Shown: positions 3,834 through 19,152 of the stretch, piece after piece
How the letters are laid out: each line of letters begins with the position of its first letter
How positions within the stretch are numbered: position 1 is the stretch's first letter
Source of the DNA: Pseudonocardiaceae bacterium
GTDB lineage: Bacteria; Actinomycetota; Actinomycetes; Mycobacteriales; Pseudonocardiaceae
Length of the DNA: 19,152 nucleotides
Reading direction: 5' to 3'
NCBI GenBank assembly: GCA_025937115.1
Contig: JAICSB010000015.1
Span: forward strand, 1-19,152
Translations under genes and position numbers: made by a program
Notes under the pieces: generated by a model
Database searches by the model: none
Told to the model about the DNA's origin: nothing
The model's input: the letters and a program-made list of their open reading frames with translations, nothing else

Positions 3834-4985
3834 TCATGGAGCACCGTCGGGCACCACCCGGTGCCAGCCACTCGTTCCGCATCCCACGAGACCCTGCAGC
3901 TCCAGCAACGGCAGCGCGGAGCGCACCCGGTGCAGCGGCACCCCGGAATCGCGTACCAGCTGCTCAGGATGCCTGGGGGCCCGCGCTGGCAACGCCTCGT
4001 ACACCGCCAGCAGTTCCGGGTTCAGCCCGTCGGTGCGCCGGCGCGGGACGCTCAATAGCGGTGCGAGGTCCGCACCGATCCGCCCTACCGCTTCCACCAC
4101 CTCTGCCGCCCGAGTGACCAACACCGCCTGCTCCTCACGTACCAGCAGGTGGCAGCCGACCGACAACGCCGACGTGACCGGACCCGGCACCGCCATCACA
4201 ACCCGGCCGAGCGCGGCAGCGGCGGCTGCGGTGCGCCGAGCGCCGCTGCGCACACCGGCCTCCACCACCACGGTGCCGGCCGCGAACGCGGCGATCAGAC
4301 GGTTACGGACCAGGAAGCGGTGTCGCGCGGGCCAACCGCCCGGTGGATACTCGCTGATCACCGCACCGCTGCCAGCGATCCGGTCGAGCAGTCTCTGGTG
4401 ACCTGCCGGGTAGGCCCGGTCCAGGCCACAGGCCTGCACCGCAACAGTGCTGCCCTCAGCGGCCAGCGCGCCCCGGTGCGCGGCTCCGTCAATGCCGAAC
4501 GCCGCGCCGGAGATTACCGCGAAACCGCCTTCGGCGAGTTCGTAGCCGAACTCGGCCGCGACGTGCTCCCCGTATCCGGTCGCGGCCCTGGCCCCTACCA
4601 CCGCCACCGCCCGCTCGGCGAGCTCGTCGAGACGGCCGGCTCCCCGCACCCAGAGCGCCACCGGGGCCCGCCAGCGATCGTCAGCCTGCGCGCCGGGTGT
4701 GGTGAAGCAGGTGAACGCCTCGGCGGGCCACTCGGCGTCCTCGGGAATGACCAACCTTCCGCCCAGCGTGGCGACGGCGGAGAGGTCGGTTTCGGCCCGA
4801 TCGTCTGCTCGGCGGGCTGCCGCCTCCGCGGCCACCCGGGCGGATACCTGTCCCGCGGTCACCAACTGGGCCGCCCGCACCGGACCTGCATCGCTGATCA
4901 GCTCGCAAAGCGCGGGCGCCGGCGGCTCGGCGACCCGGCTGAGGTAGGCACGCGCCCGCCGCAGCTCCCGCTGGCCCGGTGTCAT
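3834..4985 (-). CDS. dprA: DNA processing protein DprA
   Basis: DprA loads RecA onto incoming single-stranded DNA during transformation and is widely conserved in bacteria not known to be competent. The 383-residue protein has the Rossmann-like core at about 123-290, with VAVVGARAATGYGE, SGAAFGIDGAAHRGAL (159-174), the ISEYPPGGWP loop (210-219) and FLVRNRLIAAFA. A winged-helix domain occupies about 322-378. Its ATG overlaps the comM stop by 4 nt (ATGA), so the two are translationally coupled. The gene looks intact, unlike comM just upstream. Confidence 0.95.
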   Translation of the reverse strand: MTPGQRELRRARAYLSRVAEPPAPALCELISDAGPVRAAQLVTAGQVSARVAAEAAARRADDRAETDLSAVATLGGRLVIPEDAEWPAEAFTCFTTPGAQADDRWRAPVALWVRGAGRLDELAERAVAVVGARAATGYGEHVAAEFGYELAEGGFAVISGAAFGIDGAAHRGALAAEGSTVAVQACGLDRAYPAGHQRLLDRIAGSGAVISEYPPGGWPARHRFLVRNRLIAAFAAGTVVVEAGVRSGARRTAAAAAALGRVVMAVPGPVTSALSVGCHLLVREEQAVLVTRAAEVVEAVGRIGADLAPLLSVPRRRTDGLNPELLAVYEALPARAPRHPEQLVRDSGVPLHRVRSALPLLELQGLVGCGTSGWHRVVPDGAP

Positions 4986-6250
4986 GCCGCCCGCCGATCT
5001 CGCAGCCCCATCGCGGCGCTCACGTCCTCGAGCAACGGACGGTCCCGCCCGGCCAGGTCAGCCACCGTCCACGCCAACCGCAGAGTGCGGTCCGCTCCTC
5101 TCGCTGTGGCCATTCCGCGCTGCAGCGCTGCCGCGATCGGTTCGGTCACCGTCCGCGGCAGCCGGAACCGCCGCCGCAGCACCGGACCGGGCACCTCGGC
5201 ATTGGTGCTCCAGCCGGTACCCGCCCACCGCGCCCGAGCTGCTTCACGGGCCCTGAGCACCCGTGCGCGCACGATCGCGGTGCTCTCCGGCTCGGCGTCG
5301 GACTCACCCATGTCCTTGACCGGACGCATCGCCACCCGCAGGTCCACCCGATCGAGTAGCGGCCCGGACAGTCGACCCAGGTACCGCCTGCGCGCCGACG
5401 GGGCGCACGTGCAGTCTCGCTCGTCGGGCGGAGCGCACGGGCACGGATTAGCCGCCAGCACAAGCAGACACCGCGCCGGGTATCGCACCGCCCCGTCCCG
5501 GCGGGCCAACCGGATCTCGCCATCCTCCAGCGGCGTGCGCAGCGCCTCCAGCGATCGCGGTCCGAACTCCGCGACCTCGTCGAGGAACAGCACCCCACGG
5601 TGCGCGCGGCTCACCGCGCCCGGCTTGGCCAACCCGGAGCCACCCCCGACCAACGCGGCCACCGAGCTGGTGTGGTGTGGCGCAACGAAAGGGGGAAGCG
5701 TGATCAGCGGCGTCTCCGGTGACAGCAGGCCGGCCACCGAGTGCACTGCGGTCACCTCGAGCGCCTCCTGATCGGTCAGCGCCGGCAGCAGTCCCACCAT
5801 CCGCTGCGCCAACATGGTCTTGCCCGTGCCCGGCGGCCCGGTGAGAAACAGATGGTGACCCCCTGCAGCGGCGACCTCCACCGCCCAGCGAGCGTCTCCT
5901 TGTGCCAGCACGTCGCGGAGATCGGGGACCGCCGCCGACCGTGCCGGGCGCGGCGGGCCCGGGCAGGTCAGCCCGACTGTGGGGTTGCGCAACCAGCTGA
6001 GCACCTCCTTGAGGCACGTCGCGCCGCGCACCCCGATCCCGTCCACCAGAGATGCCTCGGCGAGCGAGGCGGTCGGTACCACCACCTGACCGATGCCGAC
6101 CTGACGCGCCGCAAGCACTGCGGGCAGCACCCCGCGTACCGGGCGCAGCCGGCCGTCGAGGGCCAGCTCCCCGATCAACACCAACCCGCACAGCCGCTCG
6201 CCGGGGATCCGACGGTCAGCGGCCAGCAAAGCGCACGCCAGTGCGACATC
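4982..6250 (-). pseudogene. comM: comM (YifB) Mg-chelatase-like ATPase, 5' truncated by the prophage
   Basis: ComM is an AAA+ hexameric helicase that promotes branch migration during transformation. The surviving part contains the LonC-like stretch (IPGERLCGLVLIGELALDG), Walker A (TGPPGTGKTMLAQR), Walker B (GVLFLDEVAEF), the Cys-rich CPCAPPDERDCTC loop and the C-terminal lid. Read backwards from the stop, the frame matches the family as far as DVALACALLAADRR and loses it at 6250; upstream it reads a few unrelated codons and meets TAA at 6272-6274. Around 90 N-terminal residues are missing compared with full-length ComM (about 500). A TTG at 6227-6229 could in principle start a shortened protein, but the first part of the N-terminal domain would be absent. 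The missing 5' end should lie past the right end of the element. Confidence 0.9.
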
Positions 6251-6262
6251 GCAGATTATGGT
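6245..6262. other. Left host/element junction (attL), approximate
   Basis: ComM coding similarity ends between 6250 and 6253, at GATGTCGCA read on the minus strand. A more AT-rich patch (about 6252-6275) follows that belongs to no gene. The core sequence cannot be fixed without the right junction or an empty site. There is no tRNA gene at the boundary, so the element targets a protein-coding gene. Confidence 0.7.
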
Positions 6263-6574: not shown

Positions 6575-6786
6575 TGGACGCCCCCGCCGTCGCGTCGTCC
6601 CGGGCCACCTACGCCCTGATCGACGTGTCTTACGCCGAAGCCGCCTACCGCCGGGCCTCCCTGGACCGCATGGACGCCGCCCGTGACGCCCTGAACGCTG
6701 GGGCGACCCTCGACCAGGTCAGTGACGCGCTGGGTGGCTTTGAGGTCGCCGATGTGCTCGCGCTGTTCCCGGAGAACCCGCTGTGA
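6574..6786 (+). CDS. Small protein, paralogue 2
   Basis: A 70-residue product of unknown function, starting at a GTG that shares its first base with the preceding stop. Its half DRMDAARDALNAGATLDQVS, then DALGGFEVADVLALF, mirrors the preceding protein: a helix, a GAT(L/Q)(D/E)QV turn and a second helix ending AD(A/V)L. The shared pattern could be a small protein-protein or DNA-binding helical unit. It overlaps the next gene by 4 nt (GTGA). Confidence 0.8.
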   Translation: MDAPAVASSRATYALIDVSYAEAAYRRASLDRMDAARDALNAGATLDQVSDALGGFEVADVLALFPENPL

Positions 6787-7796
6787 ACACAGCCCTGGAG
6801 CGCACCAGCCGCCGGATCGTCATCGGCACGTGGGGCTGCGCCGCCATCGTCATGGTCGCCAGCGCCGCGAACGCCGCGCTGACCTATGGCGCGCTGGGTG
6901 ACAACAGGGCGCTGGGCCTGGCCACAGGGGTGGCGGTCGACATCGCCTTGTGCGTCGCGCTGATCGGTGACCGGCAGCTGTATGTGCACGGGCTGTCCTC
7001 GAACTGGGGCCGGGTCCTGCGGATCACCGCCGCCGTGATGTCGCTGGTCCTCAACGCTGGCGTGGCGTGGCGGGATGGTCGCTACTTCGCGGCTTTCTTG
7101 CACGCTTTCCTGCCGGTGCTGTTGGTCTGTCTCACCGAGTACGCGCAAGACGTGCTGCTCAAGTTCGCCGCGCTGGCGCGAGAGGCCGAGCGCGCCCCCT
7201 CGATCTCCGACCCCGGACCGTCCGAGCCGGGTTCCGGCGGCTTAGGCCGGGCGGGGTCGGATCTGACGTTGTACGCCCCGCTGGACTATTCCGGTGGCCC
7301 AGCGGGGCGTGCCGTCACCGTACTACCGAGCCCGGACGGCCTGGACACTGTCGCGCCGCCGTCCGGTCTCGGTCCCATCGACTCGCCCGCCCGACCCCCT
7401 TCCCCGGGGCCGGACGGGCTGCCAGTGGGCCGCTTGGTGACCGGCCCGCTCCCCGCCCCGGTCCGGCCGGAAGTTCCGGTCCGGCCGCCCGGGGCGGGTC
7501 GGCCTGTCGCGACAAACGGCGCGACAACGCAGGCCCGGCGTCGCGACAAACCGCGCGACGAAACCACGACAAACGGCGCGACAAAACCCGCGACACGGGC
7601 ACGACAGACCAAGCCCGCGACAGCGGAGCAGAGGCGCGCGTGGGTGCGACAGCAGCGCGACAACGGGCGCACCCCTACAGGTGCTGACGTGCACAAACAG
7701 TTCCCCGCTGCACCGAAAGACGGTGCACGGATCGTGCGACAGGTCGACGCGGAACTCGAAGTCGAGTTGCGCGCTGTCGCGGCAGGAGAGAGGTAG
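6783..7796 (+). CDS. DUF2637-like membrane protein with Pro-rich linker and HTH-like tail
   Basis: Residues about 8-130 form a domain with probably four transmembrane helices (VIGTWGCAAIVMVASAANAA, GLATGVAVDIALCVALIG, a third near 75-95, AFLPVLLVCLTEYAQDVLL). This matches the DUF2637 family found on actinomycete plasmids, AICEs and some phages, usually next to an FtsK/TraB-type translocase, as here. Residues about 140-275 are a Pro/Gly/Thr-rich linker. The last 70 residues (EQRRAWVRQQRDNGRTPTG and following) look like a helix-turn-helix. The linker DNA carries five direct copies of CGCGACAA. A role in anchoring the translocase or DNA at the membrane is inference. Confidence 0.75.
   Translation: MNTALERTSRRIVIGTWGCAAIVMVASAANAALTYGALGDNRALGLATGVAVDIALCVALIGDRQLYVHGLSSNWGRVLRITAAVMSLVLNAGVAWRDGRYFAAFLHAFLPVLLVCLTEYAQDVLLKFAALAREAERAPSISDPGPSEPGSGGLGRAGSDLTLYAPLDYSGGPAGRAVTVLPSPDGLDTVAPPSGLGPIDSPARPPSPGPDGLPVGRLVTGPLPAPVRPEVPVRPPGAGRPVATNGATTQARRRDKPRDETTTNGATKPATRARQTKPATAEQRRAWVRQQRDNGRTPTGADVHKQFPAAPKDGARIVRQVDAELEVELRAVAAGER
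7508..7663 (+). repeat. Five direct copies of CGCGACAA within a gene
   Basis: Exact copies start at 7508, 7520, 7542, 7577 and 7656, all on the same strand. An 18-bp version (7510-7527) recurs at 7567-7584, and the 12-mer GTCGCGACAAAC occurs at 7506 and 7540. The copies fall in two different reading frames of the host gene, so protein repetition alone does not explain them. Confidence 0.7.
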
Positions 7797-7802
7797 GTCG
7801 AG

Positions 7803-8030
7803 GTGACTGTGTTCGCAGTGGTGATCGTGACGCTGATCGCCGGGCTTTACGTGGGCTGGGCGGTGCACCGGGAAGGCGACCGCGCGTACATCGAGCGCCG
7901 GGCGCAGTGGATCGCACGGAACGAGCTGCCACCGCAGCTCTCCCAGCCCGTCTGCCACGACGACGTGATCGAGGCGGAGCTGGTGTACGCGCCGTCTGCC
8001 CGACTGGACCGGCCGGAGGTGACTAGGTGA
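7803..8030 (+). CDS. Small single-pass membrane protein
   Basis: A 75-residue product with one hydrophobic helix at the N terminus (about residues 2-20, VFAVVIVTLIAGLYVGWAV) followed by a charged soluble part. No family was recognised. It starts at GTG 7803, downstream of a purine-rich stretch. It ends in a GTGA overlap with the next gene, inside the translocase operon, so an accessory role in the membrane complex is possible. Confidence 0.7.
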   Translation: MTVFAVVIVTLIAGLYVGWAVHREGDRAYIERRAQWIARNELPPQLSQPVCHDDVIEAELVYAPSARLDRPEVTR

Positions 8031-8359
8031 GCGCCAAACGGACGCCCATCCCGAAGCGCAAGCGCACGCTGGAGAAGGCCCGGCGGCTGGCTGCTGGTCT
8101 GTGGCGGGACGTGACCGGCGAGCCGAAGGCGCGCGGGAAGGGCGGCTCGAAGGTCAACCCGTGGTCGCGTTGCGAGGCGTGCCACCGGCGTCAGCCGCCT
8201 TACGCGTTCGGGTGCGGGAAGCCGACCCACGGTGGCATGTGCATGGCCTGCTGCGGTGCGCCTCATGACGACGAGGACGACGAGGAAACCCCGGATCAGG
8301 CCTCGGTTCGGGATAAAGGCGACGAAGACAAAGAGGACGACAATGACCACCATCACTGA
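8027..8359 (+). CDS. Cys-rich, probably zinc-binding small protein
   Basis: A 110-residue product with three parts: a very basic N terminus (residues 1-45, KRTPIPKRKRTLEKARR), a Cys-rich centre, and a very acidic tail (80-110) ending DNDHHH. The centre has C49xxC52, C63 and C72xxC75C76, enough for a zinc ribbon. No family was recognised. It starts at a GTG overlapping the previous stop and overlaps the translocase start by 17 nt. The basic head suggests nucleic-acid binding (inference). Confidence 0.72.
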   Translation: MSAKRTPIPKRKRTLEKARRLAAGLWRDVTGEPKARGKGGSKVNPWSRCEACHRRQPPYAFGCGKPTHGGMCMACCGAPHDDEDDEETPDQASVRDKGDEDKEDDNDHHH

Positions 8360-10415
8360 CCAGCCGACCGCCGTGCCGCCGCCCGCTGAGTCCGCACCGG
8401 GGGGCAAGCGGGAGCTGCGGCCCATCCTCGCGTCGTGGCTGAAGGACTCCGGCGAGTTCACTGAGAAGGTCACCAACACCGGCAAGCGGGCCGCGCACAG
8501 CACCGCGTGGCACGTGCTGCATTCCCCCCTGCACCTGGCCCGTGCCGCGAAGTACGCCCCGCGTGGGGCCGGGCGGGTCGTCCGCAAGGCCTGGGGTTGG
8601 ACGATGCACTCGGAAGTCCGGCCGATGCAGCGGACGCACGCGCTGGCGAACAACTCCCCCGAATGGCACAAGCTGGAGAAGGAGCGCAAGGAAGCGGTCC
8701 ACCGCCGCTGGATAGGGGTGTTCTGGCTGTCCGTGCTGATGGTGATCGGTGTGGTGCTGTGGTGGTGGCTGGTGCCCCGGTGGCAGATCATGTCGTGGCC
8801 GGTCGTGTGGGTACTGACGCCCTACTGGACGCTGGCGCTGCTCGGCTTCGCCGCCGTGTGGCCGCTGGGCTACATCGGTCGCCCGATCGACGCTCCCCTG
8901 CTCAAGCGCGCCACCGACACGAGCGGGAACCCGCCACTGCGGTCGGAGACTGTGGTCAACGCGCTGGTCAGCCTGCGAATCCCCGGCATGCTGAAGCCCG
9001 AGGACATCCGTCTGCTGCACGACATCTCCGGACCCTCCTCGGGCTACCTGTTCGAGCTGGAGCTGCCCCCGGGCATCACTGCCGAGGCGGTAATGGAGAA
9101 GCGGTCCGCGCTTTCCGCCGCGCTGCGTCACCCACTGGGGTGCGTGTGGCCCTCGGTCGGCAAGCGCCACCAGGGGCACCTCGTGCTGTTCGTTTCCCAC
9201 GAGGACATGAACACTGCGAGGCAGAAGCCGTGGCCGCTGCTCAAGACCGGCGCGGTGGACGTGTTCAGCCCGGTGCCGCTGTTCACTGACCAGCGCAACC
9301 GCTGGGTGAAGCTCACGCTGGCCTATACGTCCGGCGTGATCGGTGCGGTGCCCCGCATGGGCAAGACGTTCATCCTGCGGGAGTTGCTGCTGGTCGGCGC
9401 GCTGGATCCACGGGTGAAGGTCTACGCCTTTGACCTCAAGGGCACCGGCGACCTGTCTCCGCTGCGACTGGTGGCGCACCGGTACGCGTGCACCTCCCGG
9501 CCGGAGAAGATCGCCGAACTCCTGCCGGTGTTCGAGGAACTCCAAGCGGAGCTGTATCGCCGGGCGGAAGTCATCGAGGGGCTGTCTTACGAGGAGTGCC
9601 CGGAGAACAAGGTCACTCCCGAGTTGGCGTCGCGACGGGCGTTGAAGTTGGAGCCGATTCTGATCGGCGTCGATGAGTGCCACGAGTTGTTCGAGCACGA
9701 GGAACCGGCGACGAGGGCCAGGTTCACCAAGATCTGCACCGACCTGGTCAAGCGTGGCCCGGCGTTGGGGATCATGCTTTACCTCGCCACGCAGAAGCCC
9801 AGCGCGGCGTCGATCCCGACTGCTATTGCGGACAACGCCGTTATCCGGGTGTGCCTGAAGGTGCACAACCAGATCTCGAATGACCAGGTGCTCGGTACGG
9901 GGTCCAGCAAGATGGGCCTCAAGGCGCAACTGTTCGCTGTTGCCGACAAGGGCATCGCGTACCTGAAGGGCGAGGGCGCCGATGCGCAGATCGTGCGGTC
10001 GGTGTTCGGCCTGGACGCACCGGCTTCCGAGAAGGTTGCCACTCGTGCCCGCGCCGCACGTGAGCTGGACGGGCGGCTGACCGGTGAGGCCGCTGGTGCG
10101 GCGATGGACCGCGAGGAGGAGCAGGTCGTGCTCCTGGACGACATCACTCGGGTGTTCGGCGCCACCCCCGGGATGCACCTGGCCGACATCGTGACCGGCC
10201 TGGCCGGGCTGCGCCCGGCGGCGTGGGGCTCGCTGGACGTCAATGCCCTGGGCAAGCACCTGCGCAACATGGAGGTGCGGGTGGACAAGATCCACGTGCG
10301 CGGCAAGGGCACGAACGCCGGGGTGAAGCGGGAGTGGTTGGACGTCTCGACCACTCGCCTGGCGGGCGATGAGGAGCCCGGCGACAACGTCATTTCTCTT
10401 ACCGAGCGCCACTGA
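8343..10415 (+). CDS. FtsK/SpoIIIE/TraB-type DNA translocase
   Basis: A 690-residue membrane-anchored ATPase predicted to pump double-stranded DNA. Two transmembrane helices lie at about 122-142 and 154-178. The motor follows, with a variant Walker A AVPRMGKT (about 334-341; the first Gly is Ala), a conserved YAFDLKGTGDLSPL segment and Walker B ILIGVDE (about 439-445). The last ~80 residues look like a winged helix, as in FtsK gamma and TraB, where this domain reads octamer repeats. The ATG at 8343 has AGAGGA 7 nt upstream; the frame extends to 8232 but without such support. Neighbours (DUF2637-like, one-TM protein) match plasmid/AICE transfer operons. An octamer array starts inside its 3' end. 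Confidence 0.9.
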   Translation: MTTITDQPTAVPPPAESAPGGKRELRPILASWLKDSGEFTEKVTNTGKRAAHSTAWHVLHSPLHLARAAKYAPRGAGRVVRKAWGWTMHSEVRPMQRTHALANNSPEWHKLEKERKEAVHRRWIGVFWLSVLMVIGVVLWWWLVPRWQIMSWPVVWVLTPYWTLALLGFAAVWPLGYIGRPIDAPLLKRATDTSGNPPLRSETVVNALVSLRIPGMLKPEDIRLLHDISGPSSGYLFELELPPGITAEAVMEKRSALSAALRHPLGCVWPSVGKRHQGHLVLFVSHEDMNTARQKPWPLLKTGAVDVFSPVPLFTDQRNRWVKLTLAYTSGVIGAVPRMGKTFILRELLLVGALDPRVKVYAFDLKGTGDLSPLRLVAHRYACTSRPEKIAELLPVFEELQAELYRRAEVIEGLSYEECPENKVTPELASRRALKLEPILIGVDECHELFEHEEPATRARFTKICTDLVKRGPALGIMLYLATQKPSAASIPTAIADNAVIRVCLKVHNQISNDQVLGTGSSKMGLKAQLFAVADKGIAYLKGEGADAQIVRSVFGLDAPASEKVATRARAARELDGRLTGEAAGAAMDREEEQVVLLDDITRVFGATPGMHLADIVTGLAGLRPAAWGSLDVNALGKHLRNMEVRVDKIHVRGKGTNAGVKREWLDVSTTRLAGDEEPGDNVISLTERH

Positions 10416-10416
10416 G

Positions 10417-10436
10417 GTCTTACCGGCCGGTAAGAC
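10417..10436. promoter_or_regulatory. Perfect 20-bp palindrome
   Basis: GTCTTACCGGCCGGTAAGAC is self-complementary over 20 bp and consists of two octamers facing each other. It begins two bases after the translocase stop. It would suit a dimeric DNA-binding protein. Confidence 0.85.
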
Positions 10437-10449
10437 GCTCGGTAAGACG

Positions 10450-10487
10450 CCCTGACCTGCACGTTCGCCCGGAACGGCAGGTCAGGG
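10450..10487 (+). terminator. Long hairpin downstream of the translocase gene
   Basis: CCCTGACCTGC (10450-10460) pairs with GCAGGTCAGGG (10477-10487). Within it CGTTC (10462-10466) pairs with GAACG (10472-10476) around a GCCCG loop, with one bulged base. No T-run follows. The 11-mer recurs directly at 10527-10537, which suggests a recognition role besides, or instead of, termination. Confidence 0.6.
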
Positions 10488-10657
10488 CAGGACCCTCGGT
10501 AAGACTCGGTAAGACGCTCGGTAAGGCCCTGACCTGCGGTCTTACCGAGATTGTGCCCTCCGGGGCGTTCGGGGCCTGAAAAGCCTAAAAGCCCAGGTCG
10601 CACCTCGGCGAGGGCACCTGACGGACTCGGTAAGAAAGCCAACTACAGGAGACAGCC

Positions 10658-10852
10658 ATGATCAGTACGACCAGCCGTGAGGCCTTGGAGGAGTACGCCA
10701 CCGCGCTCACAGCGACCATCGAGGAACTGACCGCGACCATCGAGGGGATGCGGGCCGACCTCACTGACGTGAACGACGCCCTGGACGCGACCAACGTCGA
10801 TGCGCACACCTGGGGTGGTCGGCGCGGCGCTCCCGTACCCCGCCGGGGCTGA
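10658..10852 (+). CDS. Small coiled-coil protein
   Basis: A 64-residue product with a good ribosome site (AGGAG, 6 nt before the ATG). The first 45 residues are a helix with an internal near-repeat, TATIEELTATIEGM, and heptad-like spacing; the tail is short and basic. The function is unknown. It directly follows the octamer array, and the last octamer (10628) lies 23 nt before its start, so that repeat may control it. Confidence 0.7.
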   Translation: MISTTSREALEEYATALTATIEELTATIEGMRADLTDVNDALDATNVDAHTWGGRRGAPVPRRG

Positions 10853-10891
10853 GGTGCAAGATTCAACGGTGGATGAAATACGGGGGCGCGC

Positions 10892-11869
10892 GTGAAGGTG
10901 TTCTGGTGGGCTGCGGACGAGTCAGGCTGCCGCTACTACCGGTGCGATCTGGCGGCCAACGAACTGGCCAGGCGCGGGCACGAGACGCTGGTGTCCACGC
11001 GGATGCCCGACGAGTGGCTGCACACCGCCGATGTGATCGTTGGCCAGCGCGTGTGCCAGCCCGGCGCGACGCTCCGCTGGCAGGAGCTGGCCCGCGAAGG
11101 CCGGGCGAAGCTGGTGCTAGAGATCGATGACGACCTCTTGGACATCGACCCCAGCAATGGCCCGGCGTGGTCGTTTTTCTCAAGACCGGAGATCCGCGCC
11201 AACGTGATCCGCAATATCGAGGTCGCCGACCTCGTGACGGTGAGCACGGACCCGTTGGCCGAAGTGGTGAGCGAGTACAACCGCAATGTGGCGGTGCTGC
11301 CCAACTGTGTGCCCGCGTCACTATTGGACGCCCCGCCCGCTCCGGGATGGAAAGGGCTCACCCTCGGGTGGTCGGGGGGAATGTCGCACAAGCTGGATCT
11401 CGCCGAAGCACGCGACCCGGTGCGCCAGTTCCTGCGCCGGTACCCCGATGCGGGGCTGCACATCATGGGCCACGTCGACCCCGACTTCTGCAAGGCGATG
11501 CCCACTGAGCGGATCCACTTCACGAAGTGGGTTGACGCGGTGCCCGCCTTCCACGCCGCGATCGACTTCGACGTGACCCTGGCCCCGCTGCGGCCGTCGC
11601 CGTTCAACCGCTCGAAGTCGGCCATTCGGTGCCTGGAAGCTGCCGCGCTCGGTATCCCCGTGATCGCCTCAGACTTCGGCCCGTACGCCGACTTCGTGCA
11701 GCACGGGGTGACGGGGCTCCTGGTGCGCCGCCCCCATGAGTGGGGCAAGCGCCTGCGGACCCTGCTCGATCCGTTCACCCGGCGGGAGATGGGCCGCAAG
11801 GCCCGGGAACTGGCCACTGGGCACACCATCGAGGCCAATATCGAGCTGTGGGAGAAGGCGCTCACATGA
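10892..11869 (+). CDS. GT4-like (GT-B fold) glycosyltransferase
   Basis: A 325-residue protein with the two Rossmann-like halves of GT-B enzymes. The N-terminal half begins MKVFWWAADESGCRYYR and includes EIDDDLLDIDP (about 75-86). The C-terminal half has LGWSGGMSHKLDL and the nucleotide-sugar site segment CLEAAALGIPVIASDFGPY with HGVTGLLV. In the usual EX7E motif the second Glu appears to be Asp. It transfers a sugar from a nucleotide donor; the acceptor is unknown. The GTG start has a G-rich stretch upstream. Its stop overlaps the next ATG (ATGA). It heads a four-gene cassette, which suggests it acts with the enzymes downstream. Confidence 0.85.
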   Translation: MKVFWWAADESGCRYYRCDLAANELARRGHETLVSTRMPDEWLHTADVIVGQRVCQPGATLRWQELAREGRAKLVLEIDDDLLDIDPSNGPAWSFFSRPEIRANVIRNIEVADLVTVSTDPLAEVVSEYNRNVAVLPNCVPASLLDAPPAPGWKGLTLGWSGGMSHKLDLAEARDPVRQFLRRYPDAGLHIMGHVDPDFCKAMPTERIHFTKWVDAVPAFHAAIDFDVTLAPLRPSPFNRSKSAIRCLEAAALGIPVIASDFGPYADFVQHGVTGLLVRRPHEWGKRLRTLLDPFTRREMGRKARELATGHTIEANIELWEKALT

Positions 11870-12297
11870 TCGTCTACGTCGGGGGCACTTTCGACCTGTT
11901 CCACGCGGGGCACGCCTACCTGCTCGGTCAGTGCCGCAAGCTCGCCGGGTCGGACGGCAAGGTCGTGGTCGCGCTGAACACGTGCGCGTTCGTGGCCGCC
12001 TACAAGGGCCACTCCCCGGTCAACCTCTACGACGAACGCCAGGCCGTGCTGCTGGCCTGCCGTCATGTCGATGAGGTCGTGCGCAACGCCTTCGGGCAGG
12101 ACTCCAAACCCACCATCGAGGCCGTGCGGCCCGACGTGATCGCCATCGGTATCGACTGGGCACAGAAGGACTACTACGCGCAGATGCAGTTCACGCAGCA
12201 GTGGCTCGATGACCGGGGCATCTCGCTGGTCTACCTGCCGCACCCCCGGCCGCTGTCCACCCACGCGATCAAGAACCGGATCCTGGAGACCACGTGA
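11866..12297 (+). CDS. TagD-like cytidylyltransferase
   Basis: A 143-residue nucleotidyltransferase of the HxGH group. The signature GGTFDLFHAGHAYLL places HAGH at residues 13-16, and the C-terminal LSTHAIKNRI corresponds to the second (ISTT-like) motif. The length fits glycerol-3-phosphate cytidylyltransferase (about 130). Such enzymes make CDP-glycerol or a related CDP-polyol from CTP; the true substrate cannot be told here. The ATG overlaps the previous stop and the gene ends in a GTGA overlap, so it is coupled to glycosyltransferases on both sides and may supply an activated donor. Confidence 0.85.
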   Translation: MIVYVGGTFDLFHAGHAYLLGQCRKLAGSDGKVVVALNTCAFVAAYKGHSPVNLYDERQAVLLACRHVDEVVRNAFGQDSKPTIEAVRPDVIAIGIDWAQKDYYAQMQFTQQWLDDRGISLVYLPHPRPLSTHAIKNRILETT

Positions 12298-12953
12298 ACA
12301 CCTGGGTACTAGTCCCCTGCCACCGGCCCCGGCTGACGGAACTGCGGGCCTCCCTGGTGAACCTGGGCCTGCCCGGTGAGCGCACGGTGGTGGTGACCAC
12401 GGAGCCGGAACCGATCGGGCCAACGCAGGTCAAGGCGGCGGCGGTGCTGTGCTCGCCGGAGCCGGGGATCAACATCTCCCGCTGGTGGAACCTCGGCCTG
12501 GATTGGATAGCCGCGCAGCACGAGCACGGCGAGCGGTACGAGGTGCTGTGCATGGAATCCGACGTGCGCATCGACTTCGACACCTTGGTCTGGCTGCGCC
12601 TGGCGCTGCGCGCGCACAAGCTCGCGATGGTCGGGGCGGACTGGTACGGGGTGGCTCATGAGCCGGTGGAGGTCCGCCGCGACCTGGTACCCGAGACGAT
12701 CCAGCACCGCATCCCCGGTGTGTGCATGCTCGTCGCTGGTGAGCTGGGCTTGCGGTTCGATGAGCAGTTCCGCTGGTGGTACGCCGACGATGACTTCGAG
12801 TGGCAGCACCGCAAGGCCGGTGGGACTGGGTTGGTGAAGGGCCTGACGGTTGAACACGGTCCAGGTCGATCTTTGGCCGATGAGCGCGTGGCGTACGCCC
12901 TGATCGACTACCAGCGGTTCGTGGCCAAGTGGGGAGCACCGAACATCCGATGA
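12294..12953 (+). CDS. GT-A-like glycosyltransferase, unassigned family
   Basis: A 219-residue protein whose fold looks like GT-A: an N-terminal strand WVLVPCHRPR, an acidic metal-site candidate ESD at 88-90 in VLCMESDVRIDFD, and YADDDFEWQHR (163-173), typical of the late acidic motif in glycosyltransferases. The NISRWWNLGLDWI segment may contact the donor. The family was not recognised with certainty. It is coupled to the cytidylyltransferase gene upstream (GTGA) and to the GT2 gene downstream (ATGA). Confidence 0.7.
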   Translation: MNTWVLVPCHRPRLTELRASLVNLGLPGERTVVVTTEPEPIGPTQVKAAAVLCSPEPGINISRWWNLGLDWIAAQHEHGERYEVLCMESDVRIDFDTLVWLRLALRAHKLAMVGADWYGVAHEPVEVRRDLVPETIQHRIPGVCMLVAGELGLRFDEQFRWWYADDDFEWQHRKAGGTGLVKGLTVEHGPGRSLADERVAYALIDYQRFVAKWGAPNIR

Positions 12954-13552
12954 GCAGCGACATCAGCGTAGTCATCGCCACTATCCCGATCAGGGCCAAG
13001 ATGCTGCGGCAAGCCCTCGCGTCGGTCGTTACTCAAACGTTCCAACCGGCCGCGATCGTGGTCGAGTACGACCACGAACACACGGGCGCTGCAGCGACGA
13101 AGAATCGAGGCCTCGCCCGCGTCACCTCGGAATGGGTCGCGTTCCTCGACGACGACGACCAATTCCTGCCTGAGCACCTGGAGAAGCTCCGCGAAGCGCA
13201 GCTCGACTCGGGCGCGGACGTCGTCTACTCCATGCCCTACATCCCGCAGCTAGCCGCGCTGGGCGGCATCGACCCATCCGGGATGCGGGGTGCACCGTTC
13301 GACCCGGATGAGCTGCGGCGCCGATCCTACATCCAGACCACGGCGCTGGTGCGCACGAAGCTGGCGCAGTCAGTGGGTGGGTTCCAACTCCCGCCAGGCA
13401 GCGACTACGACGATCACGGGCTCTGGCTGGCCATCCTTAATGCTGGCGGGACCTTCCATCACTTGCCGGAGCAGACCTTCCTGTGGAACCACTGGGGATA
13501 CGGACAGCCCGGCGTTCCGGGTAACACGAGCGGGAGGGCGGACCGGTGGTGA
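12950..13552 (+). CDS. GT2-family glycosyltransferase
   Basis: A 200-residue GT-A enzyme. The N terminus DISVVIATIPIRAKMLRQAL is the GT2 first strand and helix, EWVAFLDDDDQFLP (61-74) holds the metal-binding DxD, and the late GSDYDDHGLWLAI supplies the catalytic acidic region (usually ED). At 200 residues it is a minimal GT2 enzyme. The ATG at 12950 overlaps the previous stop; an in-frame ATG at 12929 lies inside the upstream gene and is less likely. It is the last gene of the coupled cassette. Confidence 0.88.
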   Translation: MSSDISVVIATIPIRAKMLRQALASVVTQTFQPAAIVVEYDHEHTGAAATKNRGLARVTSEWVAFLDDDDQFLPEHLEKLREAQLDSGADVVYSMPYIPQLAALGGIDPSGMRGAPFDPDELRRRSYIQTTALVRTKLAQSVGGFQLPPGSDYDDHGLWLAILNAGGTFHHLPEQTFLWNHWGYGQPGVPGNTSGRADRW

Positions 13553-13607
13553 CCTCTCCGGTACATCTACGGGTATATCTTGTGGTACAGTCCTGGGTAT
13601 GACCAGA
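13548..13607 (+). repeat. Five-unit 12-bp direct repeat over a start codon
   Basis: GGTR begins at 13548, 13560, 13572, 13584 and 13596, exactly 12 bp apart each time. The best units are GGTACATCTACG, GGTATATCTTGT and GGTACAGTCCTG; the outer two are diverged (GGTGACCTCTCC, GGTATGACCAGA). The last unit contains the ATG of the next gene. The phasing suggests a head-to-tail operator. Confidence 0.6.
13586..13591 (+). promoter_or_regulatory. Candidate -10 box for a leaderless transcript
   Basis: TACAGT lies 7 nt before the ATG at 13599, so transcription would begin at or next to the start codon. No ribosome site precedes that ATG, in keeping with a leaderless mRNA, which is common in actinobacteria. 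No good -35 is visible. TATATC at 13574-13579 is an alternative. Confidence 0.4.
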
Positions 13608-13877
13608 CACCCCGACAAGATCGCAGAGAACAAGCTGCGGCGCATCGCCGAACGCCGGGGACTCACCCTGCGCAAGTCCCCCCGCAGAGATCCCAAAGCG
13701 CTCGACTACGGCACCTACCGGCTGACCATCGACACCGAAGACGCCGAAGGCGAACACGAGCACGAGTGGCGCGCCGGGCTGCGCTTCGACCAGATCGAGG
13801 CGGCGCTGGACGCGTACTCGGCACAGGAAGACGCCGCCGCCCCCGACGATCCACGCACTGCTGAGGAGAGCAACTGA
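13599..13877 (+). CDS. Conserved small actinobacterial protein
   Basis: A 92-residue product. The N terminus (IAENKLRRIAERRGLTLRKS, then RRDPKALDYGTYRL) matches a type of small hypothetical protein common in actinobacterial chromosomes and mobile elements, in which a basic helix is followed by a DYG(T/G)Y strand. The C-terminal third is acidic. The function is not known to me; the basic helix suggests nucleic-acid binding. The start is set by this family-like beginning; the longer open frame from 13290 overlaps the GT2 gene and is not credible. Its stop overlaps the next ATG (TGATG). Confidence 0.78.
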   Translation: MTRHPDKIAENKLRRIAERRGLTLRKSPRRDPKALDYGTYRLTIDTEDAEGEHEHEWRAGLRFDQIEAALDAYSAQEDAAAPDDPRTAEESN

Positions 13878-14714: not shown

Positions 14715-15425
14715 TCACGGTCTCAACCAGGTCAAGGCGATGTGGTTGGTCGCCCCGAACCCAGTGTGGGTGTTCAAGCTGACCCCGCTGTTCTGGAAAA
14801 CCCCCGCGAAAACCGAGGTGCTGGCGGTGACCCTGATGTCGGTCGAGACGCTCATTGACGGTTCGGAGGTGCCGTCGATCGACGCTATCTGCATCGCGAA
14901 CCGCGCGGTGAGCGTGGCGATGTTCGTCCCGGTCGACAGAAAGAGTGTGGTGTCGTCGGCACCGGTCGCAGCTAGGCGCTGGGAAGCCGAGATCCGCCAC
15001 AACCCGGCCCGGTTGAGGAGGAAGTCCTGATTGCCTGTGCCGGACGGTGTGACGTCGTCGCAAGTGGTGACCGCTGTGGGAAATCGGACCTTCGTGTCGG
15101 TGGCGTTCCCGATGGCCTGCACGGTAGTGCTCTCGTAGCGGGCTTCGTGCCGTTGTGTCGCCGAGGAGCCACCCATCGCGAGGACGCCGACCCACGCGGA
15201 TCCGTTGTACTCGTAGAGCATGTTGTCGGTGGCGTTAACGATGAGCTGCCCGGCGTAGGGCGTGGTCACTTCCGACGTCGCGAGGACCACGCGGGTGAGC
15301 CGGAGCGCGCCGAGTCGGGCGAGGAGGGTCGCTGCGGTGTCATCGAGGTCGCGGCGGGTGTCGCGGGCGTACCCGGCCAGCCCGGCGATCGGGTCAGCGT
15401 TGAAACGGCGAGGGTCGACGGCCAT
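14715..15425 (-). CDS. Tail fibre / receptor-binding protein with C1q-like head
   Basis: A 236-residue structural protein. The N terminus (RRFNADPIAGLAGYARDTRR) may attach to the tail and is followed by a helical part. Next comes the motif QLIVNATDNMLYEYNGSAWV, common in phage fibres. Residues about 105-235 look like a C1q/TNF-type beta jelly roll (LLNRAGLWRISASQRLAA, NHIALTWLRP at the end), a usual receptor-binding head that forms trimers. Its ATG shares a base with the stop of the hub gene (TGATG), so the two are coupled. Confidence 0.78.
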   Translation of the reverse strand: MAVDPRRFNADPIAGLAGYARDTRRDLDDTAATLLARLGALRLTRVVLATSEVTTPYAGQLIVNATDNMLYEYNGSAWVGVLAMGGSSATQRHEARYESTTVQAIGNATDTKVRFPTAVTTCDDVTPSGTGNQDFLLNRAGLWRISASQRLAATGADDTTLFLSTGTNIATLTARFAMQIASIDGTSEPSMSVSTDIRVTASTSVFAGVFQNSGVSLNTHTGFGATNHIALTWLRP

Positions 15426-16492
15426 CAGATGAACTCCGCCTGGAAGCGTTTCTTGCCGCTGGAGTCGACGTCGACGGTGAGCTTCGACAGGCGCAGCGCG
15501 GCGGTCTGGACACCAAGACCGGCGTCGTAGGAGTAGGTGACGGTGTCGCCAGCGCGGAACCCTCGAATATCCGCACCGATGCGGGGGATCACGGTTACCC
15601 CGGGTTGGAGGAGCTGCGTGGAGCGCGCCGCGAGATAGGCGTTGGCGTGCCCATCGAGGGTGGCCTGGACGCTGACCCCGTCGAAGTTCTTACTGGCCCA
15701 GGAGCGGCCGAAGGCGGAGCGCACGGCGGCTGTGTTCTGGGCGGAGTACAGGGTGGTGTTCACCGCGCCGGTGGTGGTGGAGGTGCCGGTCGCTGAGATG
15801 TCGGAGACGACGTCGTCGGGGGCGACGGACACAGCGATCGAGGCGGAGTCGATGTTGCGCTCATCGAAGAACACCGACGCGGACAGATCCGTGCCCGAGA
15901 CGGGGTAGGCGAGGACGAGTTTGCGGGTGATGGGGTCGACGCGGGTGTCGAACCCGCTGTCGACGGCCCCGAGTTCGGCGAGTCGCTGGCCGATGTTGTG
16001 TAGCTCGTCGCGGAGGTAGACCCGGTCGCGGGTGACCCCGGAGGTGCCGACTGTGCTGGTGTCGATGCCGTAGTTGCCGTAGCTGAGGGCTTGCCAGTGG
16101 TCGACCAGGCCCTTCGCGATGGTGAACTGGTCGACGCCGCTGTAGGTGAGGTCGGAGGTAACCCCCATTCGGTAGGTGTAGCCGAGCAGGCCCACGCAGT
16201 TGAGTTGCACGCTCTGGCCGTCGACGGAGAGTGCCTGCACCTCACCGGCCCAGTGCAGGACAGTGTCGGTGTAGATCCACACCTCGCAGGGGTTGGCGAC
16301 GAGATCCGCGAGGCGTTGCTTAACCGCGCTGGAGATCGACCGGATGGGGCACGACAGGGTCGCGGTGCCGGGGCGGTTTAGCTCCTCGGTGTAGGAGAGT
16401 CGGTCGACAACGAGTCGGTCGACAACGGTCAGCGTTGGTGAGGCCGCCGACTGAGGTAGTCGAGCGACGAGCACCGGATCGAACTCGGTCAC
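15425..16492 (-). CDS. Siphovirus tail hub / minor tail protein (Gp37-like)
   Basis: A 355-residue protein resembling the ReqiPepy6 Gp37-like/Tal group that forms the hub below the distal tail ring. It begins with repeated VVDRL strands and YTEELNRPGTATLSCPI. It then has a beta-rich region with HWAGEVQALSVDG and NCVGLLGYTYR, and a helical segment LVDHWQALSYGNYGID. It ends with DTVTYSYDAGLGVQTAALRL and KRFQAEFI. The GTG start shares its G with the upstream stop (TAGTG). No peptidase domain is visible, so it is a short hub without a cell-wall-cleaving tail. Confidence 0.8.
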   Translation of the reverse strand: MTEFDPVLVARLPQSAASPTLTVVDRLVVDRLSYTEELNRPGTATLSCPIRSISSAVKQRLADLVANPCEVWIYTDTVLHWAGEVQALSVDGQSVQLNCVGLLGYTYRMGVTSDLTYSGVDQFTIAKGLVDHWQALSYGNYGIDTSTVGTSGVTRDRVYLRDELHNIGQRLAELGAVDSGFDTRVDPITRKLVLAYPVSGTDLSASVFFDERNIDSASIAVSVAPDDVVSDISATGTSTTTGAVNTTLYSAQNTAAVRSAFGRSWASKNFDGVSVQATLDGHANAYLAARSTQLLQPGVTVIPRIGADIRGFRAGDTVTYSYDAGLGVQTAALRLSKLTVDVDSSGKKRFQAEFI

Positions 16493-16725
16493 TACGCACG
16501 CGACCCGTCGCGCTGGCCGCGACCGAGTGCCGCCTTGAGGTCATCCACCGGCACGTCGATCGCGTCGGCCAGCTTTGCAAGAATCGCCTCATGCGCTGCC
16601 TCCTCGTCTTCGCGGGCCTTGCGGAGGCGTTGCAGGGGCGCCCTGTCCAGCGCAATTTCGCTGTCAGTCACCGGCACCTCGCGGACGCGGCCAGTCCCGC
16701 AGTCGACCTCTACTCTGATGGGCAT
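16492..16725 (-). CDS. Small tail-operon protein
   Basis: A 77-residue product with a short beta start (MPIRVEVDCGTGRVREVPVT) and a long charged helix (RKAREDEEAAHEAILAKLAD). Small proteins of this type lie between the fibre and hub genes in many siphoviruses and may act as fibre chaperones or attachment proteins; that role is inferred from position. Its stop overlaps the next start by one base. Confidence 0.75.
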   Translation of the reverse strand: MPIRVEVDCGTGRVREVPVTDSEIALDRAPLQRLRKAREDEEAAHEAILAKLADAIDVPVDDLKAALGRGQRDGSRA

Positions 16726-16738
16726 GTTGGCGTCCCTT

Positions 16739-17950
16739 CTACTTCATGCCGTAAAGGCTGATGTGCGTACCGGCAGCGAAGTTGCCAGCGTTGGGCAGGA
16801 ACGTGAGCGAGGTGATGGCTGACGTGTTCGACCAGTTCCGGCTCGCGGCGTGCCAAAGCGTGGACGGACCGGCGGATTCGAGATAGCAGGTGTGACAGAT
16901 GACCGGGTGAGTTAAGCCGGACACGGAGTACTCAGGGATGGTGATCTCGTTAGCTGACGGGTTGCTGCCGCCGATGATTCCGACCTGCATAGCGTTTGCG
17001 CTCAGGACGCTTCCGGCAACGACGGAGCTGCCCGAGGCACTCAACCACTGAGTGTCGTAGTGGAACGCGGAGTCACCGTTGATGCGTGCGTAGATCTCCT
17101 GAAAGCCGGAGTCGCCCACGCCGCTAATGACGACCTTGAGATGCTTGTATGTCGCCGGGATACTGCTCATCGTCAGCGATCCCGCAGCTACCGCGAACGT
17201 GTTGCCGCCCAGCAGAACCCAGTCTGGGTCCGCCCAGTTCACACCGGCTGTTGCGCCGCTATTCGGGGTCAGCACCTGGCCAGCGGTGCCCACCCCGACC
17301 CGCACGGGAGTAGCACTTCCGCTCGCCGCGATCAGGTCGCCCTTGGTCGTCAACAGCGACTTCGCGATCATCGAGCCGGAGACGATGCCCGACGCGATGC
17401 TCGTCTGGGCACGCTGGTCAGAGATGTTCGCGTTGGTGATCGTGGTGACCGTCGCTGCCACCGTGACCCGGGCCAGCAGCGCGTACGCCGTCCACGCGGC
17501 GTCCGGGCCAGGGTTCGCGCCACCGAGGTCACCTTTGCGGTAGCCGATCCGGGGAAGGACCCGCGAACTGGAGTCGTACGCGTTGTCCTGCACCACCAGA
17601 TAGATCTCGTCGGTGCGAGTCTGGGAGGCGTCGGCTGCGGTGATTGTGACGTTCTGGGACGCCACGTCGAGCCGCACAACGTAGTTACCCTGACCAGCCG
17701 CCGTGCCTGAGAGCACGTAATAGTCGGCCTTCGTGGTCAGCGAGCCGACCCGCACCGTCATATTCGGCGAAGTCTGCGCGGTAACCTGGAAAGCGGCGGC
17801 TGGCGTGATGTAGCCGGACGTCAGCAATTGCGACAGAAGCCGGGCCTCTTCGGCGGTGGTGTCGGTGACCGCTGCCCCGGCGTTGTCGGTGCGCGCCCCG
17901 AGGATGCTCGCGGAGAATGTGGAGTCGACCAGAGTCGTCACGGGTGCCAT
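16739..17950 (-). CDS. Phage tail fibre protein
   Basis: A 403-residue structural protein. The N-terminal half (to about residue 185) has the beta-rich tail-attachment pattern seen in actinophage minor tail proteins (DEIYLVVQDNAYDSSS, ISDQRAQTSIASGIV). The middle contains the fibre motif LTTKGDLIAASGSATPVRVG, then VGTAGQVLTPNSGATAGVNWADP. The C-terminal ~150 residues look like a beta-sandwich receptor-binding head, ending FAAGTHISLYGMK, a frequent fibre terminus. GAGAGGAA lies a few bases before the start. As it follows the distal tail gene, it belongs to the baseplate or fibre set. Confidence 0.85.
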   Translation of the reverse strand: MAPVTTLVDSTFSASILGARTDNAGAAVTDTTAEEARLLSQLLTSGYITPAAAFQVTAQTSPNMTVRVGSLTTKADYYVLSGTAAGQGNYVVRLDVASQNVTITAADASQTRTDEIYLVVQDNAYDSSSRVLPRIGYRKGDLGGANPGPDAAWTAYALLARVTVAATVTTITNANISDQRAQTSIASGIVSGSMIAKSLLTTKGDLIAASGSATPVRVGVGTAGQVLTPNSGATAGVNWADPDWVLLGGNTFAVAAGSLTMSSIPATYKHLKVVISGVGDSGFQEIYARINGDSAFHYDTQWLSASGSSVVAGSVLSANAMQVGIIGGSNPSANEITIPEYSVSGLTHPVICHTCYLESAGPSTLWHAASRNWSNTSAITSLTFLPNAGNFAAGTHISLYGMK

Positions 17951-17960
17951 CAGGTTCCTC

Positions 17961-18854
17961 TCAGTCGATCCATGTGTCTCGCCACGTCACGTTGCAGATG
18001 CAGTCCGTGGAGGTGCCCGTGACCTGGAATTTCAGGGTGTTGTTGCCCGGCGACAGACTGAACGCGGTACGGGGCACCGTCCACGAGCCGTACCGGCTCG
18101 ACCCGCCGAGGTCGATGACGAGTGTGTTCGCACCGGTCACCGCCGCCGTCATGTCCGCTGTGAGAATTTGCCCGGAGGTGATCGTCGTAGCGATCGCGAG
18201 GACGGACCCGTTGGTCAAGTTCGTCAACGTCACGCCGGTGCAGGTGCCCACCGTTGGCCCGTAGAACCGGATCAGCGGGTACGCCTCAGCGGTGCCGCTG
18301 TTCGTTGCCGACAGGAAGTTCTGGAGCCCGCCAGTGAGGTCCACGGGCCAGTTCGCGACCGGCCAGTCCATGCCACCGCCGGTCGAGGCGAACACCGTGG
18401 CGTTCCCGGAGTACTGATCGGAGGAGTAGATCCGGGGGTCCACGGCGCGCAGCACCACCGGCGGGTGGCCGACCTGGTCAAACTGGAGGTACTCCTGAAC
18501 CCGAGTGAGCTGGATCGGGCGGCAGTTCACGTACCGCTCGGGCATTCCGGGCCGCTTGAAGGTCAGCGGCAGATCGACGCTGCGGGACGGCAAGAACGTA
18601 GACCTCAGCGTGGACCAGCGCGTCTCAAAGTCGGTGTCCGCTGTCTCGCCCAGGGCCAGCGTGAAGGCCACCGTTCGGGGCGCCACGTAGTCCAGGCCGC
18701 GAATGCCGCCGTCGTTTCGGGGCTGGTCGGAGTCCGAGGTGCGGACCTCGAACCCTTCGAGGCCTTCGTGGTGGTCGACGTAGTAGCCGGTGTCGTCCCC
18801 GAAGGTCAGGCCGTTGTAGTTGAAGGTGTAGTCAGCCAGCCCCAGTGCCGCCAT
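17961..18854 (-). CDS. Distal tail protein (siphovirus Dit-like)
   Basis: A 297-residue protein of the siphovirus tail-component family, which forms the ring linking the tail tube to the hub. It has the typical N-terminal strand FNYNGLTFGDDTGYYVDHHE, GIRGLDYVAPRTVAFTLALG, and PPVVLRAVDPRIYSSDQYS. The C-terminal half is a beta-sandwich with PLIRFYGPTVGTCTGVTLTN and VIDLGGSSRYGSW, close to galectin-like Dit extensions. It starts 3 nt after the stop of the tape-measure gene. Order and size fit a siphovirus module. Confidence 0.87.
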   Translation of the reverse strand: MAALGLADYTFNYNGLTFGDDTGYYVDHHEGLEGFEVRTSDSDQPRNDGGIRGLDYVAPRTVAFTLALGETADTDFETRWSTLRSTFLPSRSVDLPLTFKRPGMPERYVNCRPIQLTRVQEYLQFDQVGHPPVVLRAVDPRIYSSDQYSGNATVFASTGGGMDWPVANWPVDLTGGLQNFLSATNSGTAEAYPLIRFYGPTVGTCTGVTLTNLTNGSVLAIATTITSGQILTADMTAAVTGANTLVIDLGGSSRYGSWTVPRTAFSLSPGNNTLKFQVTGTSTDCICNVTWRDTWID

Positions 18855-18857
18855 CGC

Positions 18858-19152
18858 CTACCCCACCGTCCTGAGAGCTAACGCCACGAACCGGCCGGTC
18901 TCTGCGGGTGAGCCGCTGACCTGGGTGATGTTCACCGTCACACCGCCCAGGCCGCCCCGGCTGTCGAGGATGCGGTCGAGCTTCGCTGTCTGGGTGGCCG
19001 TGAGCACCCGTTCAGGCGCGCCCGTGGAGTTGCGGACCAGCGTGAGCCCGGTCGGGAGTAGGCCGCCGGAGTCGTACCCACGGGGGGATGCGTTGGGGTT
19101 GGCCTGCTGAACGTTGAAGATCGAGCCGTAGCGGGCCTTGATGTAGTTGATC
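18858..19152 (-). CDS. Tail tape measure protein, C-terminal end (partial)
   Basis: The last 97 residues of a gene running in from the right edge. RGYDSGGLLPTGLTLVRNST followed by GAPERVLTATQ is the recognisable C-terminal signature of actinophage tape-measure proteins, which set tail length and are ejected ahead of the DNA. The end ALALRTVG lies just before the distal tail gene. Its length and its transmembrane parts are outside the window. Confidence 0.85.
   Translation of the reverse strand, partial: INYIKARYGSIFNVQQANPNASPRGYDSGGLLPTGLTLVRNSTGAPERVLTATQTAKLDRILDSRGGLGGVTVNITQVSGSPAETGRFVALALRTVG

Follow-up and report, generated by a model that had tools for sequence, protein, structure and literature searches.

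The window, i.e., the whole 19152-bp stretch of DNA that was analysed, contains a traB gene encoding an FtsK-type translocase with an array of the octamer CGGTAAGA at its 3' end, flanked on the left by a truncated comM gene and on the right by phage cargo and tail genes (Table 1). The position of the membrane protein gene at 6783-7796 corresponds to that of the DUF2637 genes of three other loci collected for comparison (L001-L003), and neither PHROGs nor Pfam provided a family for this protein, for the small Cys-rich protein or for the ORF at 12294-12953. The cargo region has a 41% match to Streptomyces phage KimJongPhill and, located as it is between traB and the tail genes, possibly serves surface modification. 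The reading frame at 18858-19151 (-) is, judging from its motif, presumably the end of a tape-measure protein. The window thus comprises tail genes, the Tra gene and the truncated comM, while head genes, integrase and the right end of the element lie beyond its edge; among the part of the window ORFs that was scanned, neither Int nor Rep was found.

Table 1. Positions of the features of the window
Feature	Position	Strand	Basis
comM (yifB), C-terminal part without the N-terminal ~80 residues; left edge of the integrated element	4982..6229	-	Pfam ChlI from profile position 81 of 121
Membrane protein, putatively assigned by SpdB/DUF2637-type gene position	6783..7796	+	four hydrophobic segments
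Small Cys-rich protein with CxxC motifs, adjoining traB	8027..8359	+	ORF
traB, FtsK-type dsDNA translocase, 690 aa	8343..10415	+	phrog_1358 E 1.4e-26; pSVH1 TraB E 1e-26
C-terminal winged helix of TraB (residues 618-703 of 727-aa frame)	10083..10340	+	AlphaFold2, H-E-H-H-E-E
Predicted recognition helix (residues 670-679)	10239-10268	+	AlphaFold2
Exact CGGTAAGA copies	10397(-), 10418(-), 10428(+), 10440(+), 10497(+), 10507(+), 10540(-), 10628(+)	both	exact-match scan
Core of clt/TRS-like array (7 exact CGGTAAGA and 1 CGGTAAGG)	10397..10547	both	
Outlying ninth copy, exact CGGTAAGA	10628..10635	+	exact-match scan
12-mer GCCCTGACCTGC, three copies interleaved with the octamers	10449, 10477 (inverted), 10526; span 10449..10537		repeat search
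64-aa ORF after the array	10658..10852	+	ORF; no Pfam or PHROGs match
Phage-type cargo: glycosyltransferases and cytidylyltransferase-like gene	10892..13552	+	phrog_7162 E 1.7e-58; Pfam PF00535, PF01467
Phage tail region	14715..19151	-	phrog_1885, phrog_3398, phrog_5577, phrog_33
ORF with Pseudonocardia autotrophica homologue (33%)	14715-15425	-	no Pfam match
Minor tail protein	15425-16492	-	PHROGs
Virion structural protein	16739-17950	-	PHROGs
Dit	17961-18854	-	PHROGs; best phage match Streptomyces phage ZL12 (28%)

The traB frame is readable from position 8232 (8232-10415, a 727-aa frame), but the first residue of most of 31 aligned homologues falls on or beside the one that position 8343 encodes, so that the translocase probably starts there (MTTI...). 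Its nearest relatives are encoded on two JGI contigs (88% and 84%) and in a Pseudonocardiaceae MAG (82%), and the match among plasmids is to pSVH1 TraB (32% over about 317 residues). This match (E 1e-26), along with two hydrophobic segments and an FtsK-like motor in the AlphaFold2 model, bears out the earlier note's identification of the translocase as a TraB relative. The Pfam FtsK_SpoIIIE score (23.8 bits) falls just below the cut-off of 24; with Foldseek, the best PDB match of the model is the E. coli FtsK motor (9.1e-14), followed by TcpA of pCW3. The model of the C-terminal winged-helix domain reaches pLDDT 91-96 in its core blocks and finds mostly generic winged-helix proteins, at weak scores, FtsK gamma being absent among the fold matches listed. 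A TraB relative at another locus (L071, ~11948-12301) carries a second C-terminal stretch which we take to resemble the classical FtsK gamma domain. With TraB as query, a single-protein scan of viral contigs and a tblastn search of phage records gave no matches.

Rescanning recovered all eight exact octamers and the single-mismatch copy that had been reported in both orientations within 239 bp: the exact copies at 10397-10635 are distributed over the + (five) and - (three) strands, and the mismatched copy, CGGTAAGG, is located at 10519(+). No exact CGGTAAGA was found elsewhere in the 19152-bp window, so that all eight of its copies fall into the array, compared with 0.13 on average and at most 3 in 200 dinucleotide shuffles of the same sequence. 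Start-to-start spacings of the nine copies are 21, 10, 12, 57, 10, 12, 21 and 88; the clustering at 10-12 bp that had also been claimed hence holds for four of the eight intervals and fails for the other four (21, 57, 21 and 88). The array indeed overlaps the 3'-terminal part of the translocase gene: the start of its first copy lies 19 bases ahead of the last base of the stop codon (10415), two bases separate the stop codon from the second copy, and the core of the array extends to 132 bases after the stop codon. Two further observations concern the immediate surroundings of the octamers. First, at 10393-10412, the copy inside traB helps to set the C-terminal peptide ISLTERH, while at locus L005, where the octamer is CGGTCAGC, TraB ends with VVALTGRR; the octamer thus constrains the end of the protein. 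Second, the first two of the interleaved GCCCTGACCTGC units are able to form a hairpin, and each 12-mer contains GGTCAGG, which covers seven of the eight positions of the octamer found in sister elements and may be another word for the same reader, or what is left of an earlier one.

For a comparison across the family, TraB relatives were gathered from genomes, IMG/VR and plasmids (92 of the 115 listed places of one search being used), yielding 173 sequences, 171 of them with a traB stop, and, after removal of 51 C-terminal near-duplicates, 120 non-redundant loci among which distant FtsK-like loci were kept. The most repeated octamer on either strand of a 200-bp segment was scored by its Poisson surprise, with the tested segment excluded from its own background, and 6470 segments elsewhere in the same loci served as control. 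Between 0 and +200 bp from the traB stop, 47/120 loci exceed the 99th percentile of the control, whereas none (of 119 or 120) does so in any 200-bp bin from -2000 to 0, nor does any of 120 in the bin at +200; for the segment from -40 to +160 bp the count is 50/120. A p-value of 0.05 is reached by 80 of the 120 loci and missed by 40. The array of the window has the top score of all 120, and the scan, given no word beforehand, finds GACCCGGA of pSVH1 with five copies. Two other k-mer statistics were dropped: one, which gave 13/76 loci at p 0.05, had its controls swamped by GC-rich codon repeats, and the next, which gave 68/76, was biased to the tested region as the sole region left out of the background; the leave-self-out statistic gave 43/76 at p 0.05 before the set was enlarged. 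Of 54 well-scored loci, 45 have exact copies on both strands and nine on one strand only. Copy spacings across the arrays peak at 10, 12 and 22 bp, with a 10.5-bp Rayleigh test for helical phasing being weak. Paired CGGTAAGA words form a pattern so short that chance matches are to be expected in the viral contig collection.

Octamer arrays at the traB 3' end thus recur in the family, and the words differ from element to element. Among others, the octamer scan identified GGTCAGGT in P. autotrophica and the near-duplicate L091 (five copies) as well as in the P. broussonetiae plasmid and L047 (four copies each), GGTAGCAG in L073 (six copies), and, with four copies each, GGGTCTAG in L077, TGCTAGGC in L066 and GTGTCGCG in L072. 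All six occurrences of GGTCAGGT in 60 kb of P. autotrophica (one overlapping pair included) lie at 12487-12640, that is, at the traB end, as do five of the six in the 27-kb P. broussonetiae plasmid (again with one overlapping pair). For the copies near -20, 0-2 and 12, the window and P. autotrophica have place and orientation in common, but not the word: they read TCTTACCG, TCTTACCG and CGGTAAGA in the window, and ACCTGACC, ACCTGACC and GGTCAGGT in P. autotrophica. The distal copies (124/128) have opposite orientations in these two elements. At locus L005 the copies at -19 and 124 coincide with those of the window, the word there being GCTGACCG.

The earlier note had suggested looking for octamer arrays that co-vary with the C-terminal domain of the translocase, and in the 54 loci whose score exceeds the control 99th percentile or falls short of it by no more than 0.1 the octamers do track the winged helix: the similarity of two octamers (at the best shift and strand) is related to winged-helix identity with r 0.62 (Mantel p 0.0005, from permutations that take no account of phylogeny) and to motor identity with r 0.46. 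Controlling for the motor leaves the winged helix with a partial correlation of 0.48 (p 0.0005), whereas controlling for the winged helix leaves the motor with 0.08 (p 0.09). When restricted to 715 pairs with a whole identity <45% from 53 loci (L042, being masked, was dropped), residues 645-700 correlate with the octamer at 0.60, compared with 0.09 for helix 1 (618-642) and 0.05 for residues 600-640. Linkage alone would give a slope toward the 3' end, and not the high value for 645-700 next to the low one for 600-640. However, the relation is correlative and is not clean among the most diverged pairs: (i) N-terminal segments at 80-330 also correlate, at 0.24-0.46 compared with 0.56 for 645-700 (601 pairs, whole identity <45%), (ii) in a joint regression residues 260-330 (beta 0.36, p 0.013) are on a par with 645-700 (beta 0.35, p 0.001), and (iii) below 35% whole identity the value for 645-700 drops to 0.11, which is below that for 260-330 (0.16). 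The recognition pattern has two classes, with a CTAG word in 31/38 loci that have KP or ALKR near helix 3 and in 4/15 of the others (p 0.0003); if four LRP proteins are moved into the class post hoc, the counts become 35/42 and 0/11 (p 4e-7). TraB proteins of the type found in the window go with GGT[A/C]AG words or close variants. The window thus possesses an element-specific word which is tied to the TraB winged helix, in a correlative sense and with other TraB segments correlating more weakly, and it combines several features of the TraB-clt transfer module of actinomycete plasmids and AICEs: an FtsK/SpoIIIE-type motor that has membrane segments, a predicted C-terminal winged helix and an array of ~8-bp words at traB.

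FtsK is loaded by short words (KOPS) through a winged helix, and KOPS are polar and spread over the chromosome. The motor fold and loading by a short word via a winged helix are what TraB and its octamer would share with this system; yet CGGTAAGA, being clustered on both strands and, within the window, neither polar nor spread, is not a segregation word of the KOPS type. The plasmid pSVH1 resembles the window in having an FtsK-type TraB, a C-terminal winged helix and a repeated octamer just after the traB stop, with five GACCCGGA copies, four of them direct and the fifth inverted, at 15-106 (within ~115 bp after the stop); it differs in its distant TraB (32%) and its other octamer. For pSVH1 TraB, the available part of the literature gives GACCCGGA as recognition consensus (PMC5133688) and helix 3 of the winged helix as the segment that reads the octamer (PMC3583192). 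The clt of pWTY27, which consists of 16 bp within traA and 159 bp beyond, was delineated, according to the sections of PMC3583192 at hand, by transfer assays, gel shift and footprint; it is bound by TraA and contains the repeat TGACACC, and the plasmid has, in addition, separate 8-bp iterons at its origin. In position the array of the window equals this clt, since both overlap the end of the translocase gene and run on beyond it, so that the clt-like geometry put forward earlier is sustained; several short direct and inverted repeats and two membrane segments are likewise common to both. The repeat of pWTY27 is, however, 7 bp long, and its binding and transfer are proven, whereas for the window they are predicted; moreover, the available sections mention no phage genes on pWTY27 (PMC3583192), while the window has tail genes, and Phage_portal had no match on the 12.7-kb pSVH1. 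Sites named clt are found, in the portions of the literature consulted, for pIJ101, pJV1, pSVH1 and pWTY27, whereas none is described for pSAM2 in the accessible text of PMC9513070. Since clt of pIJ101 is located near korB (excerpt of PMC3583192), a position at traB is no law. Finally, AICEs such as pSAM2 share chromosomal integration and a TraB-type translocase with the element in the window; the survey definition, as worded in the parts at hand, requires Int, Rep and Tra (PMC3218068, PMC9513070), and the element in the window differs by its tail genes and by having no Int or Rep among the ORFs scanned.

The proposal that the carrier is a tailed prophage holds for P. autotrophica and gains support, for the window, from the truncation of comM and the presence of tail genes. 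The P. autotrophica element (L009), whose TraB is 43% identical to that of the window, has in the same order a truncated comM, traB with its array and the homologue of 14715-15425; its remainder comprises tape measure, neck, major tail, tail terminator, head protease and portal genes, and further ORFs match the annotated major capsid (57%) and terminase (65%) of P. broussonetiae. A serine-recombinase-type integrase gene (phrog_95 E 1.1e-92; phrog_125 DNA invertase 5.4e-27) lies directly beside the N-terminal half of comM, which is located at the opposite end of the prophage (L176:5300-7425), and the two comM halves bound an element of ~26.6 kb. This element is a tailed prophage with traB and an array of its own. 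comM is its integration target, and the same site appears to be used in the window (6229-6260). When 19 proteins of the window (traB excluded) were compared with the collected loci, only comM and 14715-15425 matched L009/L010, and the ORF at 13290-13877 matched one other locus; Dit and the other tail proteins found no match in P. autotrophica even at E 1e-3. With 14715-15425 as the sole match in the tail region, the two prophages are related mosaics and not close copies. The P. broussonetiae plasmid (NZ_CP053567, L173) is circular (27393 bp) and carries related head genes, traB, a DUF2637 gene, a tyrosine integrase and primase genes. It shares terminase, portal, protease and capsid genes at 54-65% with the comM prophage L176, and the two are of the same phage lineage, having exchanged integration modules (tyrosine versus serine type). 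Phage structural genes and traB are found on one element, as in the window, in the Pseudonocardia phage-plasmids NZ_CP053567 and CP052773 and in the P. autotrophica comM prophage; NZ_CP053567 and P. autotrophica also have the array in the same position as the window, with GGTCAGGT instead, and CP052773 (L002) has no significant array (p 0.62). A Pfam portal is present in 15 of 35 traB-bearing records (13/31 IMG/VR contigs and 2/4 plasmids), a share that is no prevalence figure because the IMG/VR contigs were selected as viral. Eleven phage structural queries matched 12/31 viral loci and, within 10-kb flanks, 3/41 genome loci; hence phage carriage is not apparent for the majority of chromosomal TraB relatives, and arrays of this kind are not peculiar to phages.

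Based on this evidence, we consider it highly probable that TraB is loaded at the CGGTAAGA array, as at a clt, through a new octamer, and that this site resides in a tailed prophage which has inserted into comM. The neighbouring TraB would read the octamer by means of its C-terminal winged helix, several copies in both orientations would recruit the protein, and TraB assembled on the array would then pump dsDNA of the element by its FtsK-type motor through a membrane pore, array and traB forming one module of the prophage. Binding of the octamer, loading of a hexamer and transfer, whether from cell to cell or within the mycelium, are predicted here by analogy with the work on pSVH1 and pWTY27.

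A loading site for TraB might also serve a purpose other than conjugation, namely movement of DNA within the mycelium (segregation or spreading) or a role in infection, which we regard as possible if doubtful. The host region holds a putative whiG-like gene (1988-2863), so that the host is perhaps hyphal. Spreading inside the mycelium by Spd and TraB is, moreover, part of the known system in the available parts of PMC4170104, PMC5365140 and PMC5133688; yet in the plasmids studied TraB/TraA and clt serve transfer between strains, as far as the consulted portions of PMC9513070, PMC3583192 and PMC5133688 tell, and no sign was found that this step has been lost.

That the octamers are instead operators or iterons, to which a repressor or a replication protein encoded by the element would bind, is unlikely. 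Short repeats on both strands at 10-12 and 21 bp are typical of these as well, the iterons of pWTY27 offer a precedent, and 22 bases separate the last copy of the array from the start codon (ATG, 10658) of the 64-aa ORF. However, a consensus scan detected no sigma-70-like site at 10300-10900, exact copies within the window are confined to the array, many elements have their arrays where traB ends (flanked by convergent genes in P. broussonetiae), and it is the TraB winged helix which the octamers track. An RNA element or transcription terminator, in which inverted copies fold in the transcript, is very improbable: the 151 nt of the array do have a predicted fold of -84.9 kcal/mol (z -6.8), but inverted copies fold by necessity, direct neighbours form no stem, exact copies are restricted to a single strand in 9/54 arrays, and no terminator-like site was found at 10300-10900. 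Recent duplication of a short repeat without function, to which the flanks CTCGGTAAGAC common to the copies might point, is hardly credible given that different octamers, the pSVH1 recognition sequence among them, occupy the same place across the family and do so in both orientations in 45/54 loci.

A TraB-clt kind of system is already known, and it is the octamer CGGTAAGA that is new; as whole words, neither CGGTAAGA nor GGTCAGGT is mentioned in the open-licence papers searched, and the titles and abstract openings listed likewise revealed no TraB-bearing tailed prophage. With the clt-type reading of the array, about 50 TraB elements acquire a candidate clt site and octamer from a single comparison, and the two-class recognition pattern can be tested by binding. 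That traB and octamer arrays occur together with tailed-phage genes, in one case on a circular 27-kb record that is complete, then raises the testable question whether some prophages also travel by conjugation. It is tempting to speculate, with a chance of being right that we see as slightly short of even, that an actinobacterial tailed-phage lineage carries a complete one-protein dsDNA conjugation module (TraB and clt) and hence is able to spread both as virions and by direct hyphal transfer, and that octamer and winged-helix reader switch together, constituting a readable recognition code with separate transfer-specificity groups. As a minor observation, a MAG labelled Gemmatimonadetes (L036) contains a TraB relative whose gene ends with three copies of GTAGCGGC (p 0.05), which reflects either transfer outside Actinomycetota or a binning error.
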